From Bacteroidales bacterium (lineage in GTDB: Bacteria; Bacteroidota; Bacteroidia; Bacteroidales; JAAYJT01), in the NCBI GenBank assembly GCA_012522795.1, contig JAAYJT010000099.1:1-49845 (forward strand): 49,845 bases of DNA, in the 5' to 3' direction. Positions 3,179 through 33,556 of this stretch are shown here, piece after piece (the first letter of the stretch is position 1; every line of letters begins with the position of its first letter). Position numbers and translations under genes: made by a program. The notes under the pieces are model-generated. The model did not search any database. It worked only from the letters and a program-made list of their open reading frames with translations, and was not told the DNA's origin.

Positions 3179-4024
3179 TTACTCCAGAATTATAAATCTT
3201 TCATCTAAAGAAGGTTTCAGAGAACGGTTAAGAAGATCATATCTGAAATATAATATCCTGTCATCACCGTTGGGAATATTCCGTTCAATATAGCGGTTCA
3301 TAAAATAGTCAAAAATATAACCGGAATAACGATTACCCGCAGCATATGCCATTGTGTAAATATCGTTAATATCAATTGAATCAATATTGTATGTATAAGC
3401 CATTCTGCCGGTAAAAGGGAAATAACGTAGTCTTCCTTCAAAATAATCATTCATATACAAATCGCTATAAACCAGCGACTTGTCAGGATTATTCTCAGTT
3501 ACTGCGGAAATTTCAAACCAGGAGCTAAGTACGATCTTATTTAAGTAAATATCGCCAACATATTCATATTCAGGATCGTACTCAGGATCGAATACACGCT
3601 CAACTGTTTCCTCCATCATCAATTGAGCCACATTTAATAGATATTTATCACCCGATGCGTTAAGAAAAACATCGGTATCCGGTTCAAGATAAACATTAAG
3701 TTTTCTTTTCCTTAACCCGTTTATTAGTTCATTCATATAGGTTTCAAGGAAAACTGAATCAGAAACATACTGTACAAATAAGCTCCGATAAAACAAAACG
3801 GAATCAATTGTAGCCTCATCCATCCAGCTTTCTCCAGCAACTTCATAAGTTTTGAGGTTATATTTATAAACAAAATTGGCAGGTATTAAAAGAACAGAAG
3901 TATTTTGCCTGATTTCAACAAACTGTTTGGCAAGTTTCCTTTCTACAGTACATCCAGACAGAAAAATAAGACCGGAGAAAGAAAAGCAAAATATTTTTAA
4001 TATAATTTTAGTTATTCCCTTCAT
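3179..4024 (-). CDS. Predicted lipoprotein of unknown function, coupled to the flavodiiron protein gene
   Basis: I do not recognise the family. The chosen ATG at 4024 gives 281 residues with a clear lipoprotein signal: a hydrophobic stretch to about residue 24, then LSGC, so the protein is probably anchored to the outer or inner membrane through the Cys. A longer frame exists (upstream start at 4072) but would place 16 hydrophilic residues before the signal peptide. The mature protein is acidic and rich in Tyr and Asp, with no repeats, membrane segments or catalytic signature that I can see. Its start lies 17 bases inside the end of the upstream flavodiiron gene, which suggests translational coupling. 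Whether it takes part in oxygen or NO detoxification is not known. Confidence 0.75.
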   Translation of the reverse strand: MKGITKIILKIFCFSFSGLIFLSGCTVERKLAKQFVEIRQNTSVLLIPANFVYKYNLKTYEVAGESWMDEATIDSVLFYRSLFVQYVSDSVFLETYMNELINGLRKRKLNVYLEPDTDVFLNASGDKYLLNVAQLMMEETVERVFDPEYDPEYEYVGDIYLNKIVLSSWFEISAVTENNPDKSLVYSDLYMNDYFEGRLRYFPFTGRMAYTYNIDSIDINDIYTMAYAAGNRYSGYIFDYFMNRYIERNIPNGDDRILYFRYDLLNRSLKPSLDERFIILE

Positions 4025-5231
4025 TCTCAATTTGTTTAAGCAATTGCTCTCCAAAATTTCTGCCGTAAGCAAACGCTTTTTCTAGTTCTTGTTGGTGAGG
4101 TGTAAATTTATTGAAAAGCGATTCTCCTATATATTTTAATTTTAGGTTTTCAATAGCAGCTGTAATGATCTTTTCTCCTTCCCCACTCCATCCATACGAG
4201 CCAAAAGCTCCAGCAAGTTTTCCCTTATCTCTTAAAGGATTGATCAATGCAAAAACCTGATATATCTGAAGTAAGATATTCTGGTTAATAACCGGGCTTC
4301 CCAATATTAAACCGTTACTTCGTTCAATCTGTGCTCCTATTTCATCAAGCGATTTCATTTCTATATCGCAAACTCTTACTTCAATATCGCCAGCAGAGCG
4401 AATTCCTTTTGCAATTTCACCAGCAAGCATACCTGTATTCTTATAAGCTGAAACATAAGCTATAAAAACACGGTTTTTCTGAGGCAGGGCGAGGTATTCG
4501 CTGGCATATTTTTCTGACAGATCAACGTATTTCTTCCAGTTACTGCGCAAAATAGGTCCGTGACCCGGACAAATAATACTAATAGGTAAAGGACGAATCT
4601 TTTCAATTGCTTTCAACATAAACTTGCTGAAAGGCTTCAGTATAACTTCAAAGTAATATTTAAAGGCATCATCCCAGTTGCCAACCAAATCATCGAACAT
4701 ACCTTCATGTGCATAATGAGCACCAAATGAATCGCAGCTAAACAAAACCTTTTCCTGTTCAAGCCATGTATACATGGAATCAGGCCAATGGAGATTAGGA
4801 GCCCCAATAAATCTGAAAGTATTCTTTCCTGTATTTAAAGTATCACCATCCTTTACAATTCTGTGTGGAAACGGCGATCCAAGAAACTCATTCAGATAAC
4901 GAACAGCATTACCAGTGCAAATGACGGTTGCATCTGGTGCAATAGCCAAAAGATTTTTAAGACTTCCTGAATGGTCAGGTTCTGTATGGTTTAGAATTAT
5001 ATATTTAATTTTTGACGGATCAACTAAACTACGGATTTTGGTTTCGTATACAGGCCAAAAATTCTCCTTAACAGTCTCTATAATAGTAACTTCCGAATCG
5101 TTTACCAGATATGAATTGTAAGTAGTTCCATATTTGGTCTCCATAACAACATCAAAAGTTACAAGATCTGGGTCAAGTGCCCCAATCCATTTCACACTAT
5201 CAGTGATGTCAAGAATCTTTGTGTTATCCAT
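4008..5231 (-). CDS. fprA: FprA-type flavodiiron protein (O2/NO reductase)
   Basis: A 407-residue A-type flavoprotein: an N-terminal metallo-beta-lactamase-like di-iron domain and a C-terminal flavodoxin-like FMN domain. The di-iron ligand motif HxExDH is intact (His82, Glu84, Asp86, His87), as are His148 (NLHWPD), Asp167 (SCDSFG) and His224 (CPGHGP). The flavodoxin part starts around residue 255 (VFIAYVSAYKNTG). Family members reduce O2 to water and/or NO to N2O in the cytoplasm of anaerobes and microaerophiles, with electrons from rubredoxin or similar donors. No rubredoxin domain is fused here and none is encoded nearby, and I cannot tell O2 from NO preference. It starts 19 bases after the topoisomerase gene. 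Confidence 0.92.
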   Translation of the reverse strand: MDNTKILDITDSVKWIGALDPDLVTFDVVMETKYGTTYNSYLVNDSEVTIIETVKENFWPVYETKIRSLVDPSKIKYIILNHTEPDHSGSLKNLLAIAPDATVICTGNAVRYLNEFLGSPFPHRIVKDGDTLNTGKNTFRFIGAPNLHWPDSMYTWLEQEKVLFSCDSFGAHYAHEGMFDDLVGNWDDAFKYYFEVILKPFSKFMLKAIEKIRPLPISIICPGHGPILRSNWKKYVDLSEKYASEYLALPQKNRVFIAYVSAYKNTGMLAGEIAKGIRSAGDIEVRVCDIEMKSLDEIGAQIERSNGLILGSPVINQNILLQIYQVFALINPLRDKGKLAGAFGSYGWSGEGEKIITAAIENLKLKYIGESLFNKFTPHQQELEKAFAYGRNFGEQLLKQIENEGNN

Positions 5232-27230: not shown

Positions 27231-28487
27231 TCAGGTTTTTTGTTTCTTTTTCTTAGCAGCAGGGAAAAGGATATTATTCAAAATTAAACGATAACCTGGC
27301 GAATTAGGGTAAAGTTCAAGATTGGTAGGTGGGTCTCCTACATAATGCTGATAATCTTCCGGGTCATGCCCTCCTAAAAAGGTAAATGTTCCATTGCCAA
27401 AAGATCCATGAATATAACGGGCTTCATTCCATGCTTTATTTTCTCCAAGAATTGTTACAGTAGGCTTAATATATTGTTTCCGGAATGCTGTAGCCTGCCC
27501 CATGAAACCTTTTACTACAGTTTCATGATTCTGATTCAGCATGGTGGGAACCTGATCCCATTTTGCCGAAAACTCAAACAATGTAAAGAGATCAAGAGTT
27601 TGATTTCTTCTAGTTTTGGGCACATCAATGCTTGATTTTGCATATTCGTAAGGGTTCATAACCAATTTAAAATTTTGAAAAGCGAAAGTTCTGCTAAAAT
27701 CTAATTTTTGTTGTGCATTTGGATCCGGCGGATCTCCATCATACATTACATCACAAATATCAACGCCTTCGGCTGCTAAAGCAATATCAAGGCTTTCAGG
27801 CGCCGAACACATTGCAAAAAGATAGCCTCCTCCGGCAACAAACTCCTGAATACGTTTTGCAACTGCCAGCTTCAGCTGCGACACCTTGCTAAAGCCAAAC
27901 TCATTAGCCATATTGGTAAGGGTTCTTACCTCTTCCTGATACCATGCAGTATTTCGATATGAAGCATAAAACTTACCGAATTGTCCGGTAAAATCTTCAT
28001 GATGCAGATGCAACCAATCGTACATAGGTAATACACCTTGCATAATTGCATCGTTGTAAATAGCATCGTATGGAATTTCAGCATAGGTAAGTGCCAGAGT
28101 TACAGCGTCATCCCAGGGCTGACTAAGCGGGGGTGTGTAAACAGCAATATGAGGAGCTTTATGCAATTTTATTTCATCCATATTTATATTCGGGTCCGAA
28201 ATCTCATTAAGTATTGCAGCTGCCTGAACATCAGCAATTATCTGATAACTAACATTTCGGATTATACACTCATTTTCAAAAGTTTTATAATGTGGGAACA
28301 TAAAACTTCCGCCTCTGTAATTCAACAACCAGCTTACTTCGGTTTCATGTGTCAGAATCCAGTAGGCAATTCCGTAGGCTTTCAGATGATTTCGCTGGGT
28401 ATTGTCCATCGGAATCAGAATATAAGCAGCAAAACCATTTGTAATAATAAAAAAGGAAAGTAAGAAAGAGAAAATCAATCGCTTCAT
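27231..28487 (-). CDS. Exported conserved protein of the Bacteroidota family often labelled 'asparagine synthetase B'
   Basis: The chosen ATG at 28487 gives 418 residues with a signal peptide (MKRLIFSFLLSFFIITNGFA), followed by AYILIPMDNTQRNHLKAYG. From memory, this opening belongs to a family commonly labelled asparagine synthetase B in databases. The sequence lacks a nucleophile Cys at position 2 and the ATP-pyrophosphatase SGGxDS motif, so that name is probably wrong. A glutamine-amidotransferase-like fold is possible around VAGGGYLFAMCSAPESL, where a Cys follows a glycine-rich turn. The 54 residues upstream in the longer frame to 28649 are unlikely to be translated. No terminator seen. 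Confidence 0.7.
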   Translation of the reverse strand: MKRLIFSFLLSFFIITNGFAAYILIPMDNTQRNHLKAYGIAYWILTHETEVSWLLNYRGGSFMFPHYKTFENECIIRNVSYQIIADVQAAAILNEISDPNINMDEIKLHKAPHIAVYTPPLSQPWDDAVTLALTYAEIPYDAIYNDAIMQGVLPMYDWLHLHHEDFTGQFGKFYASYRNTAWYQEEVRTLTNMANEFGFSKVSQLKLAVAKRIQEFVAGGGYLFAMCSAPESLDIALAAEGVDICDVMYDGDPPDPNAQQKLDFSRTFAFQNFKLVMNPYEYAKSSIDVPKTRRNQTLDLFTLFEFSAKWDQVPTMLNQNHETVVKGFMGQATAFRKQYIKPTVTILGENKAWNEARYIHGSFGNGTFTFLGGHDPEDYQHYVGDPPTNLELYPNSPGYRLILNNILFPAAKKKKQKT

Positions 28488-28657
28488 ATTCAAAACATCA
28501 TTGATCAAGATATTTATACAACGCTTGATGCACATGATTAGTTTAAAAACATAATAATTAAAACCATGTGTTATCCAAAACAATGTGTATTTTATAAAAA
28601 GGGAATAGTTGTAACACTTCGTTTTGCACCTCAACAAACTTCTTAACACATTTTTAC

Positions 28658-28695: not shown

Positions 28696-31359
28696 ATGAA
28701 GCAAGTTGAAATTGCAAGCCGTTATGAACCGGCTCTGACAGAACAAAAATGGTATGATTACTGGATGAAATCCGGATTTTTCCATTCAGAACCTGACGAA
28801 CGCACTCCATATACAATAGTTATTCCCCCTCCCAATGTTACAGGAGTTTTGCATATGGGGCATATGCTTAATAATACCATTCAGGATATTTTGGTAAGAC
28901 GTGCACGTATGCAGGGATTTAACACTTTATGGCTTCCCGGTACTGACCACGCAAGCATTGCCACTGAAGCTAAAGTAGTTGCAAAACTCAAGAGTGAAGG
29001 AATTGAAAAAAGTGAGCTTTCCCGCAAAGAATTTCTCAATCATGCATGGGAATGGAAAGAAAAGCATGGTGGTATTATCCTTGAGCAGTTGAAAAAACTT
29101 GGTGCTTCGTGCGATTGGGATCGTACCAGTTTTACAATGGATGAGCATTTATACGACTCGGTAATCGAAGTATTTATTGATCTATATAATAAAGGACTTA
29201 TATACAGAGGGGTACGTATGGTAAATTGGGATCCCAAAGCTTTGACCGCCGTTTCGGATGAAGAAGTGAATTACCGTGAAGTAAAGTCAAAGCTGTATTA
29301 CATACGCTATCAGGTTGAGGATGCCAATGATGAAGAACTTACCAATGGCACAGGCTGGGTTACTATAGCAACCACCCGCCCTGAAACCATTCTGGGGGAT
29401 ACGGCTGTATGCGTTCATCCTGAAGATGAGCGTTTCAAACACTTACATGGTAAAACCGTTCTGGTTCCTCTAATTAACCGCCCTATCCCCATTATTCAGG
29501 ATGAATATGTTGACCGTGAATTTGGAACCGGAGCTTTGAAGATTACTCCTGCTCATGATATCAATGACTATAATCTGGGTTTGAAATATAATTTACCAAC
29601 TGTTGATATTTTTAACCCTAATGGTACGCTTAATGAATCGGCTGAAATCTATATAGGTGAAGATCGCTTTGTTGTGAGGACCAAAATTACCGACGAGTTG
29701 CAGGCTAAAGGACATCTGTTAAAAATTGAGGATTATGATAATAAAGTTGGTTTTTCTGAAAGAACTGACGAAGTCATTGAGCCTAAATTATCACTCCAGT
29801 GGTTTTGCAGCATGCAGAAAATGGCAAAACCGGCTCTGGAACTCGTTATGGACGATACAATACGTTTTTATCCGGCAAAGTTCAAGAACACTTATAAACA
29901 CTGGATGGAAAATGTAAAAGACTGGTGTATTTCGCGACAGTTATGGTGGGGACAGAGGATTCCGGCGTGGTATTTGAAATCAGGAGAGGTTTTTGTTGCA
30001 AAAACTGCCCAGGAAGCCGCCGTTAAAGCCAGCGAAGAGCTTAACAGAACAGTCAGTCCTGATGAGTTCACACAGGATGAAGATGTTCTCGACACATGGT
30101 TTTCGTCTTGGTTATGGCCAATATCGGTATTTGACGGCATCAGAAAGCCTGATAATCCTGATATTAAATATTATTATCCAACAAACGATCTGGTTACTGC
30201 ACCCGAGATCATATTCTTCTGGGTAGCACGTATGATAATGGCGGGATGGGAATACCGTAAAGCAATTCCGTTCAGAAATGTTTACTATACAGGGATTGTA
30301 CGTGACCAATTAGGCAGAAAAATGTCAAAATCGCTGGGTAATTCACCCGATCCACTTGAACTTATTAGCAAATACGGAGCTGATGGGGTCAGAGTTGGCA
30401 TGATGTTATTATCACCGGCAGGGAATGACTTACTTTTTGATGAATCGCTTTGCGAACAGGGGCGTAATTTCAGTAATAAAATCTGGAATGCATTTCGTTT
30501 GTTAAAAGGCTGGACAATTGATAATAATCTTGCACAACCTGAATCAGCTGAAGTTTCAGCAAAATGGTTCGAAGCAAAACTTAATACCGCTATAAATACT
30601 GTTAACGACCATTTTGAAAAATTCCGTATTTCAGATGCTTTAATGACAATTTACAAGCTCATTTGGGATGATTATTGCTCCTGGTACCTTGAAATGATCA
30701 AACCCCCATACGGTGAACCTGTGGATGAAAAAACTCTTTCTAGCTCAATTGACTTCCTTGAGAAACTGATGAAACTGCTTCATCCTTTTATGCCTTTCCT
30801 TACAGAAGAAATATGGCATCATCTGTCAGAACGTAAAGCAGGTGAAAGCATAATGATTTCTGATCTACCTGTTCCCGGGAGTGTTGATGAGGATATTATC
30901 AGCCGATTTGATTTTGCTTCAGAAGTTATAGTTGCAGTCAGAAATCTACGTGCAGGCAATAATATAGCACAAAAACAACCTTTGTCACTTTTTGTCAAGA
31001 AAAACAATAATGAAACTGCCGATCCTACTTTTGATAATATAGTAATAAAACTTTGCAATCTTGAACATCTGGTTTATACCGACGAAAAAATACCGGGTGC
31101 ATTAGGGTTTGTTGTTAAACGCACGGAATTTTATGTACCCGTTGATCAAACTATTGACATCGAAGAGAAGCGTCAGAAACTGGAAGAAGAACTGACTTAT
31201 ATGAAAGGCTTTCTGCAATCGGTTCAGAAAAAACTTAGCAATGAGAAATTTGTTGCTAATGCAAAACCTGATATTGTTGAAGGCGAACGCAAAAAAGAAA
31301 GCGATGCAATTGCAAGGATACGTGTAATTGAAGAGCAGATAGCAGGGCTGAAAGGATAA
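28696..31359 (+). CDS. valS: Valyl-tRNA synthetase
   Basis: The ATG at 28696 gives 887 residues; the frame from 28624 adds 24 residues unlike any ValRS and includes the promoter region. Class Ia marks: PPPNVTG then HMGH at 53-56, KMSKS at 542-546, the editing (CP1) domain between them with TTRPET, and an anticodon-binding helical region with a C-terminal coiled coil (about 820-885) that clamps the tRNA. It charges tRNA-Val in the cytoplasm and removes mischarged threonine. Confidence 0.97.
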
Positions 31360-31527: not shown

Positions 31528-32094
31528 TTATTTATTAAACCTACCAGTGATTTCAGCTACCCTCTTTCCAAGCTGATAGCCTTTGTTCAGAAAAATTTCG
31601 TCAAGCCCGCCATCAACAGAATAAAAAGGCAGTTCGCCAGTAATGGCTGAAGCGCCAAAAGCCTGCTCCCATGGTGAACCCCCTACTATGATCATCCCGA
31701 ATATCATCATACTATGAAGAATGTTAAGCTGTGCCAGTTCTTCACCAGCCGAAATGCCACCACCTGTTACAAAAGCAGCTCCTATTTTATTTTTCAACGG
31801 TTCACCTTCAAAAGGCCACGACATGATAAATTCTGAAACCGCAGGTGCTATATTTGCATTATACACCGGACTACCAACTATAATTGCTTGCGCTTCAAGC
31901 AAATCAGCATGTTCCACTTCATGAACCGGACATAGTTTTACATTCACGCCCTCAACACTTACAACACCTCTGCTAACTGATTCGGCTAGTGCTTTTGTGT
32001 GTCCGTCAACACTGTAATAAGTAACAAGTACTTGTGTTTGAGAGCAAACTGAAAAAGAAAAGAAAGTAAATAAAACAAACAAGGTGCGTTTCAT
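31528..32094 (-). CDS. WrbA-like flavodoxin with a predicted signal peptide
   Basis: The ATG at 32094 gives 188 residues. The flavodoxin core is clear: the FMN phosphate loop VTYYSVDGHTKALAES, GSPVYNANIAPAVSEFI, FVTGGGISAGEE and GMIIVGGSPW. It resembles NAD(P)H:quinone oxidoreductases of the WrbA/flavodoxin family. Oddly, it begins with a convincing signal peptide (MKRTLFVLFTFFSFSVCSQ), so the protein should be periplasmic or membrane-attached, where a flavin quinone reductase would have unusual partners. It starts 17 bases after the cohesin/dockerin gene stop and is probably co-transcribed. An alternative is that the hydrophobic start is a membrane anchor. Confidence 0.82.
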   Translation of the reverse strand: MKRTLFVLFTFFSFSVCSQTQVLVTYYSVDGHTKALAESVSRGVVSVEGVNVKLCPVHEVEHADLLEAQAIIVGSPVYNANIAPAVSEFIMSWPFEGEPLKNKIGAAFVTGGGISAGEELAQLNILHSMMIFGMIIVGGSPWEQAFGASAITGELPFYSVDGGLDEIFLNKGYQLGKRVAEITGRFNK

Positions 32095-32110: not shown

Positions 32111-33556
32111 TTATTTTCCTACACCCATGATGATGTTCACAGTTAAAACAAAATCCTGAATATTGATTATTCCATCATTATTAACATCTGCCGCTTCAAA
32201 AATAAATGGCTGAGGGTTACTACCCATAATGAAATTCGAGATTGTTACCGGATCAAGAATATTAACAACACCATCACCATTGGCATCACCAGGCAAATAT
32301 GCTGAAGTTACAGTAATAATAAATGTACAGGTATTGGTGCAGTTATTTTCGTCGGAATAGGTATAAACAATCTGATGATTTCCTATTCCTGCCGTATTAG
32401 GATAAAAGATTCCATCAACAACACCTGTGCCGGAATAAACACCATCCTCTGGCGTGGCACCTGTTAGCTCAAAAGGATTTGTATTTATACTCACTGAATT
32501 ATCAGGAGGGCAGGATAGCTCCGGTAATTGAAGTTCGGTAATAATAATTGTACCTTCCATATTAACTGTACCCCATGAATTGGTAGCATTAGCCATATAC
32601 AAACCTCCAATCATATTCTCCCATACAATAGCATTTCCGGTACCAGGTATTGAAGAACCAACTGGGTTAGGACCGTTATAAAGCTGATAATTAACGTCTG
32701 TTTGTGAATTATGCAGTGTAATATCAATTCCTGTTGGGGTCATACCGGTACAATAAGAACCACCTCCCGTAAGCTGATAAACCTGGGGCAGACCGGAACC
32801 TCCGGGTGTTATATTAAGCATTGCCGCTTTAGAATAATAATCGCAATATTCAACTTTGGAAATTCTGCATCGAAACTTGTATCCATTAAAAGAATATGAT
32901 GCACCGGCAATAATCAACTGAGGCCCGTTTACATTCTGATAAATTGCACTATTCTGAAGATCAATCCATTCAAGACCATTATTTTGTTGCCACTGATAGG
33001 TATCTACTTCATTTGCCACCAAAGTAAATATGGCATTGGTTCCTGCAGGCACAGTTGTATTTTGAGGCTGTGAAACAATATAGGGTGGCAATTGGCTTAT
33101 CATTCCATTATTTGGAGTAAAAGGTATTTTTATAAGATTTACGGTAACAATTTCGCCACCCGGTTTAAACACTAACGGACATGAATTAAGCTTATGGGTG
33201 AATTTCAAATCAAGTAATGTACCGTTTGAGAGGTTACCACCTGCTGTATTGCTCCAGGCTATAATAACCATTGGTTCAGGTTGCACAACCGCATTCGACA
33301 TTATTCCGCTAAACTGGGAATGAGCATTTGTGTGTCCTTCGTATTTCAGAACAGCAGTGTCGTAAGCAATATAAAGTGTGATGGCACCAATATTATTTAA
33401 ATTTGTTGCATTCAATGGCACAAGGGTTAAGTCCCCAGGGCAGGTTTGTACACTGCCAAGCGATAATGAAATTGATTGTGCATAAGATAAAAATGAAATA
33501 AGGGCAAAGAAAACAGTAAATATTATTATTCTTATTTTTGGGATCAAGGTTTTCAT
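32111..33556 (-). CDS. Secreted protein with cohesin-like and dockerin-like modules
   Basis: A 481-residue exported protein. Signal peptide about 1-26 (ends LSYAQ). A cohesin-like domain covers about 27-160 (SISLSLGSVQTCPGDLTLVPL, then LYIAYDTAVLKYEG). One or two Ig-like beta domains follow, with paired cysteines (FRCRISKVEYC and others). A C-terminal dockerin type I pair has two calcium-loop repeats: DANGDGVVNILDPV and DVNNDGIINIQDFV. In clostridial cellulosomes cohesin and dockerin bind each other on separate proteins; Bacteroidota proteins carry them outside cellulosomes with unknown partners. No enzyme domain and no obvious type IX sorting domain is present. A promoter lies at 33600-33633. 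Confidence 0.8.
   Translation of the reverse strand: MKTLIPKIRIIIFTVFFALISFLSYAQSISLSLGSVQTCPGDLTLVPLNATNLNNIGAITLYIAYDTAVLKYEGHTNAHSQFSGIMSNAVVQPEPMVIIAWSNTAGGNLSNGTLLDLKFTHKLNSCPLVFKPGGEIVTVNLIKIPFTPNNGMISQLPPYIVSQPQNTTVPAGTNAIFTLVANEVDTYQWQQNNGLEWIDLQNSAIYQNVNGPQLIIAGASYSFNGYKFRCRISKVEYCDYYSKAAMLNITPGGSGLPQVYQLTGGGSYCTGMTPTGIDITLHNSQTDVNYQLYNGPNPVGSSIPGTGNAIVWENMIGGLYMANATNSWGTVNMEGTIIITELQLPELSCPPDNSVSINTNPFELTGATPEDGVYSGTGVVDGIFYPNTAGIGNHQIVYTYSDENNCTNTCTFIITVTSAYLPGDANGDGVVNILDPVTISNFIMGSNPQPFIFEAADVNNDGIINIQDFVLTVNIIMGVGK

Follow-up and report, generated by a model that had tools for sequence, protein, structure and literature searches.

Flavodoxins are normally cytosolic. Among described proteins with this fold, WrbA (NAD(P)H:quinone oxidoreductase type IV) is reported to form a tetramer with NAD(P)H:quinone activity and active sites shared by three subunits (PMC3430622), with Trp98 and His133 documented as active-site residues (PMC12247152; Trp98 also in PMC10302398). 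Beyond the inner membrane, the route by which electrons arrive at periplasmic reductions in Bacteroidota is described as unsettled for HmuS, if not for other cases (PMC12583661, PMC13227078). The texts accessible to us, among them few subscription papers, yielded no mention of a periplasmic, secreted or exported flavodoxin like the one described here; an archaeal 'extracellular flavodoxin-like domain' in this literature is a different protein.

We analysed a stretch of 49,845 nucleotides (the window; contig C82) from a Bacteroidales genome of 2.88 Mb rated 97% complete. It encodes a protein in which a predicted Sec leader precedes a flavodoxin domain with a WrbA-type fold. As judged from their sequences, this protein and its close homologues form a clade of exported flavodoxins, which sets them apart from WrbA and makes them a fresh variant of a normally cytosolic group.

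The gene, its fold and its relation to WrbA

By our reading of the sequence, which agrees with the coordinates of the first-pass annotation, the gene runs on the minus strand from an ATG at 32094 to a stop codon ending at 31528. Its features are as follows.

31528..32094, minus strand: coding sequence of the putative exported flavodoxin, 188 aa (open reading frame; the genus has two other genomes, whose counterparts are 67% and 61% identical)
32041..32094, minus strand: predicted Sec/signal peptidase I leader, residues 1-18 (MKRTLFVLFTFFSFSVCS), with the cut expected before Q19 (sequence and homologues)
31996..32013, minus strand: FMN phosphate-binding loop, residues 28-33 (SVDGHT), with S28, G31 and T33 invariant (alignment)
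31852..31872, minus strand: FMN loop, residues 75-81 (SPVYNAN), aligned with TPTRFGN of WrbA (alignment)
31738..31764, minus strand: FMN loop GGGISAGEE, residues 111-119, corresponding to the TGGGQE stretch of WrbA (alignment)
31648..31659, minus strand: FGAS motif, residues 146-149, aligned with PYGAS of PnpB, a member of the WrbA family, after a loop 12 residues shorter (alignment with 4la4)

Scores above the Pfam gathering cut-offs of FMN_red (40.1 versus 24 bits) and Flavodoxin_5 (36.2 versus 27 bits), together with one just below that of Flavodoxin_1 (23.7 versus 25 bits), assign the protein to the flavodoxin superfamily. The mature domain is acidic and, across the clade, nearly free of cysteine. 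S28, G31, T33, the G74-S75-P76 stretch and T110 were invariant in all 27 rows of our alignment. The flavodoxin/WrbA-type FMN site is predicted to be intact, and the first-pass annotation was right that this copy keeps its FMN loop. A point that speaks against an FMN protein is the third position of the phosphate loop, which was Asp in the window's genus (three of 25 rows) but Thr or Ser in 20 of the 25; a leaderless relative, L084, likewise has Asp there. No RNA structure was found at the start of the gene (z = 1.0).

The AlphaFold model, built with 27 sequences, reached a mean pLDDT of 85.9 and a pTM of 0.83. Its nearest solved folds were WrbA and PnpB, the top eight rows having Z scores of 24-25 over 156-165 residues at 24-26% identity; WrbA-type rows as a whole spanned Z 23-25, 155-165 residues and 20-28% identity, in fold lists that leave other families possible. 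The Aquifex aeolicus flavodoxin 2ark came shortly after these in fold (Z 23.3, 30% identity) and was the strongest PDB match by sequence (104.5 bits). Flavodoxins of the 2ark type resemble the window protein in their similar length and in lacking the long segment that WrbA carries after strand 2. Leaderless Bacteroidota proteins of this type (L084-L090) differ from the exported clade in having no leader, in their three to five cysteines each and in the loop at the position of SPVYNAN, which reads SPTNMG in L086-L090.

The comparison with WrbA gave a divided answer. All 27 alignment members matched the WrbA models TIGR01755 and NF002999 at E values of 1e-5 or better, yet the window protein, the one member compared with the equivalog cut-offs, fell far below both (53.6 versus 141 bits for NF002999, 45.1 versus 132.5 bits for TIGR01755). 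It lacks two segments: some 20 residues that follow strand 2 in E. coli WrbA, and 12 that precede the YGA(T/S) motif in PnpB. With numbering counted along the E. coli WrbA alignment, W98 corresponds to F95 of the clade (Phe in 25 of 25 rows), H133 to residue 131 (15 Ile, nine Val, one Met) and His134 to residue 132 (21 Phe, three His, one Tyr). The label 'WrbA-like' therefore stands for the modelled fold (Z about 25) and the FMN loops but not for membership of WrbA, from which the cut-offs, the two shorter segments and the replaced Trp98 and His133 exclude the protein on present alignments. Its designation as a quinone reductase fares similarly, having structural likeness on its side and the replaced Trp and His of the WrbA quinone site against it.

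Two other flavodoxin-type proteins were seen in the same genome. A flavodiiron protein in the window (4008-5231, minus strand), the only other match in the genome to the A2 flavodoxin profile at E 1e-8, shares the flavodoxin domain but has no leader and is fused to an ODP beta-lactamase-type domain. A second FMN_red match (L099:1495-2073, contig C28, 192 aa) starts right at the core and is leaderless. The Flavodoxin_4 family (PF12682), whose cut-off the window protein missed (14.1 versus 24 bits), is a separate Pfam family, yet most of its members here are probably exported as well: by eye, 10 of 12 N-termini, from 13 matches in 60 genomes of the order (L047-L059), showed a signal peptide or lipobox-like leader, and two showed none.

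Leader peptide and its conservation

The leader opens with basic K2 and R3, is uncharged from residue 4 to its end and has a hydrophobic core with a maximum mean Kyte-Doolittle value over 10 residues of 2.43, followed by the predicted cleavage site V16-C17-S18|Q19. We based the leader call on rule-based scoring combined with comparative evidence. As a control, the same scoring was applied to 19 other genes of the window, which carry names given by recognition (we take them to include valS, DHFR, kdsA and gap) and of which valS and DHFR were read from a codon other than the start. A core above 2.4 together with the absence of Asp and Glu from the first 18 residues marked five of five secreted-looking genes and none of 14 cytosolic ones; kdsA reached 2.46 at residue 19 but has acids ahead of the core, and gap is acid-free but lacks a hydrophobic core.

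A hydrophobic leader was present in all 24 distinct full-length close homologues, window included, and since its letters vary among them, the leader is not a chance feature. A site with Gln at +1 was found in 23 of the 24 by a lenient pattern, L010 being the exception. This count leaves aside L005, which is cut at a contig edge, at the Gln, and 10 further Balneolaceae carrier genomes. Signal peptidase I substrates that expose Gln, which is then cyclised, are put at about 71% across Bacteroidota in one study (PMC10653852), and this Q-rule for signal peptidase I sites also appears in a second (PMC5837995). The window protein, with its hydrophobic leader and VCS|Q site, is accordingly predicted to follow the Sec/signal peptidase I route of the phylum. 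None of the 24 leaders contains an RR pair, so that a twin-arginine signal is not indicated. A lipoprotein reading of the window leader was dropped, as FSVC makes a poor lipobox; one homologue, L003, has LSAC in its leader and could be a lipoprotein.

Cysteine content differs along the same line. Mature proteins of the close family are Cys-free in 22 of 25 cases, with a single Cys in the other three, whereas only two of 13 leaderless relatives are Cys-free and 11 have one or more. Fisher's exact test gives p = 2e-5 for this contrast, a value that overstates independence, as the sequences compared for leaders and Cys are related to one another; the Cys-free pair L025/L026 was left out of the count. 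The 13 leaderless relatives (L084-L096), sampled from weaker profile matches in 116 further genomes, have their nearest Met 1-8 residues ahead of the core in every case.

Taken together, the scoring that separates the window controls and the recurrence of the leader in every full-length close homologue make export of the clade protein near certain on sequence grounds, and it very probably acts outside the inner membrane. The first-pass annotation had proposed this export signal and suggested looking for homologues with the same leader; these were found without exception. Leaderless homologues beginning at the flavodoxin core, which it had set against the idea, turned out to lie outside the clade in all 13 relatives examined.

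Distribution and genomic context

Homologues occur in all three genomes of the family (own included), in five of 295 genomes of the order, in 17 of 395 phylum genomes, two of these holding a distant, roughly 35-36% identical type (L025/L026), and in 23 of 92 Balneolaceae genomes. A scan of genome contigs gave four named records, from two Bacteroidales bacteria, a Balneolaceae bacterium and Algoriphagus boseongensis, two of the four loci being the same places as loci of the phylum search. The close homologues come from Bacteroidales, Balneolaceae, Algoriphagus and kin, and the 24 distinct full-length ones are 52-65% identical to the window protein. A profile search of the 395 phylum genomes matched 133 of them, with 267-315 bits for the exported clade and 210-214 for the L025/L026 type, both being members of the search profile themselves, and 112 bits or lower for the next best.

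When 41 rows were placed on a tree, the close exported proteins (25 rows) grouped together with moderate, unstarred support (83/78) and long-branch warnings. The L025/L026 pair was placed apart from them, so export may have arisen once or twice. Both proteins of this pair have a long hydrophobic N-terminus followed by a linker of about 20 residues before the core, and in both genomes the gene sits between one for a hydrolase-like protein of 259-260 residues and one for a secreted-looking protein of 1097-1098 residues. Plasmid carriage was limited to one record of 72,556, a 38% match across 68% of the query. This Bradyrhizobium plasmid gene (L097:2447-2998) carries the annotation NAD(P)H-dependent oxidoreductase. 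Its match begins at query residue 54, and no recognisable phosphate loop lies in frame ahead of the matched part.

Two neighbours flank the gene in the window.

32111..33556, minus strand: upstream gene for a secreted-looking protein of 481 aa that contains a dockerin type I domain; its match to cohesin narrowly misses the cut-off (Pfam)
28696..31359, plus strand: convergent neighbour, presumably valS (named by recognition), which each of the three genomes of the genus has next to the flavodoxin or one gene away

The dockerin gene ends 16 nt before the flavodoxin ATG on the same strand, and the two may possibly be co-transcribed; it was not found beside the homologues. Adjoining valS, the window also holds a gene for a secreted-looking protein of about 434 residues (27231-28649, minus strand) with no Pfam match at E 0.001.

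Neighbourhoods were compared at 23 distinct loci, window included, with L006 omitted as the same place as L045. Neighbours recur inside lineages, a recN-like gene lying within four genes in nine of nine Balneolaceae loci. Across lineages, three genes are common to L005 and the f33 pair and one to L041 and L043, and nothing more; in these 23 neighbourhoods, whose genes were clustered with few of them annotated, no neighbour was common to all lineages. At one locus (G522, L040:7070-8019) a dodecin gene comes 41 nt after the flavodoxin, and next a gene for a beta-lactamase-fold protein with a signal-peptide-like start.

A probable flavin protein outside the inner membrane

We favour the reading, at a probability of roughly 0.6, that the clade comprises Sec-exported, soluble periplasmic FMN proteins of the flavodoxin fold that act as small reductases or electron carriers outside the inner membrane. 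The apoprotein would pass SecYEG unfolded and be cut after Ser18, the new N-terminal Gln would cyclise, and the protein would then fold and take FMN from a periplasmic flavin pool; folding and flavin loading are expected outside since Sec export proceeds here without a twin-arginine signal. Since the periplasm is not expected to contain free NAD(P)H, a membrane-bound donor is likely, and the need for a donor other than NAD(P)H is a fair inference from the location, in keeping with the unusual donor called for in the first-pass annotation. Electrons might accordingly run from a membrane-bound donor (a quinol, an NQR/Rnf-type complex or similar) through the flavodoxin to a quinone, iron or a protein acceptor. 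Flavin chemistry in a periplasm has been described: Shewanella is reported to secrete FAD, which periplasmic UshA cuts to FMN (PMC4468914), and V. cholerae ApbE to use FAD in that compartment (PMC5655446). The window's own genome encodes an NQR operon that includes an NqrC-type protein of the FMN_bind family, a second NQR2/RnfD-family gene and an ApbE with a lipoprotein-like leader; the FMN_bind protein and ApbE make other flavin-using periplasmic proteins likely.

Candidate partners were surveyed in 24 carrier and 26 non-carrier genomes, chosen non-randomly from earlier matches and kin and uncorrected for kinship. In this sample ApbE was found in 20 of 24 carriers versus 12 of 26 non-carriers and NQR2/RnfD in 10 of 24 versus seven of 26; as the former is missing from four carriers and the latter from 14, neither is a general partner. 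A PepSY_TM conduit, considered as a general donor, was dropped, being present in seven of 24 carriers versus 20 of 26 non-carriers and absent from the window's own genome. With PF02514 (the CobN/HmuS family) found in none of the 50 genomes, none of the four families, HmuS, PepSY_TM, ApbE and NQR/Rnf, is a constant companion of the flavodoxin.

Among the alternatives, a periplasmic flavin binder without redox duty, which would capture, store or deliver FMN as a scavenger or chaperone and keep the fold for binding only, is unlikely. It would account for the replaced catalytic Trp and His positions and for the fact that no redox partner recurs beside the gene among the clustered, sparsely annotated neighbours, and the gene that comes next in G522 is for a dodecin, a member of a flavin-binding family. 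That dodecin neighbour, however, occurs in just one of 22 homologue neighbourhoods, and the strong conservation of GGGISAGEE and FGAS suggests more than phosphate binding.

Less probable still is the role put forward in the first-pass annotation, in which the exported protein would reduce quinones or act as a shuttle, either for menaquinone or for electron flow to the cell exterior. The WrbA fold and the NQR genes of the window's own genome agree with it, but the Trp and His of the WrbA quinone site are not kept, NQR2/RnfD is found in fewer than half of the carriers as well as in non-carriers, and no pathway-marking neighbour is common across lineages. With no shared redox neighbour and no constant companion among the four families, the proposed link to menaquinone or extracellular electron flow gained no direct backing from our data and is a guess.

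That the protein is a cytosolic flavodoxin with a mis-called start, its leader being untranslated or a spurious extension, is very improbable. The leaderless relatives outside the clade do start just ahead of the core, and a GTG or TTG near the core does occur in some close homologues. The window gene, however, has no ATG, GTG or TTG from codon 5, which lies within the leader, as far as codon 50, which lies past the FMN phosphate loop. None of the common start codons could therefore open translation at the core; an internal start, the other objection foreseen in the first-pass annotation, would delete the phosphate loop and destroy the FMN site. The presence of the leader in every full-length close homologue and the 16-nt spacing from the upstream gene also speak against a mis-called start. 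Least probable of all is a role in supplying electrons, in the periplasm, to the haem de-chelatase HmuS, for which flavodoxin is named as a possibility where the electron route is called unknown (PMC12583661, PMC13227078), because PF02514 was absent from all 24 carriers and all 26 non-carriers but detected in five of 14 control genomes; we dropped this partnership for the window clade, and for the separate Flavodoxin_4 lineages the idea stays open.

Under the preferred reading of a soluble periplasmic reductase or carrier, the finding is of moderate importance because it is an open question what donates electrons in the Bacteroidota periplasm. It also makes one ask how a protein that binds FMN non-covalently acquires its cofactor once Sec has exported it, and the mature protein, of roughly 170 residues and encoded by one gene, should be simple to express and test. 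More tentatively, Bacteroidota may have moved flavodoxins to the periplasm several times, in the window clade, the L025/L026 type and the Flavodoxin_4 lineages, to form a general and so far unrecognised pool of soluble flavin electron carriers that connects the respiratory chain in the membrane with reductases of the periplasm, much like cytochromes in other bacteria; we hold this wider scenario to be a doubtful but conceivable one. The window clade and the exported Flavodoxin_4 proteins offer concrete candidates for soluble periplasmic electron carriers.
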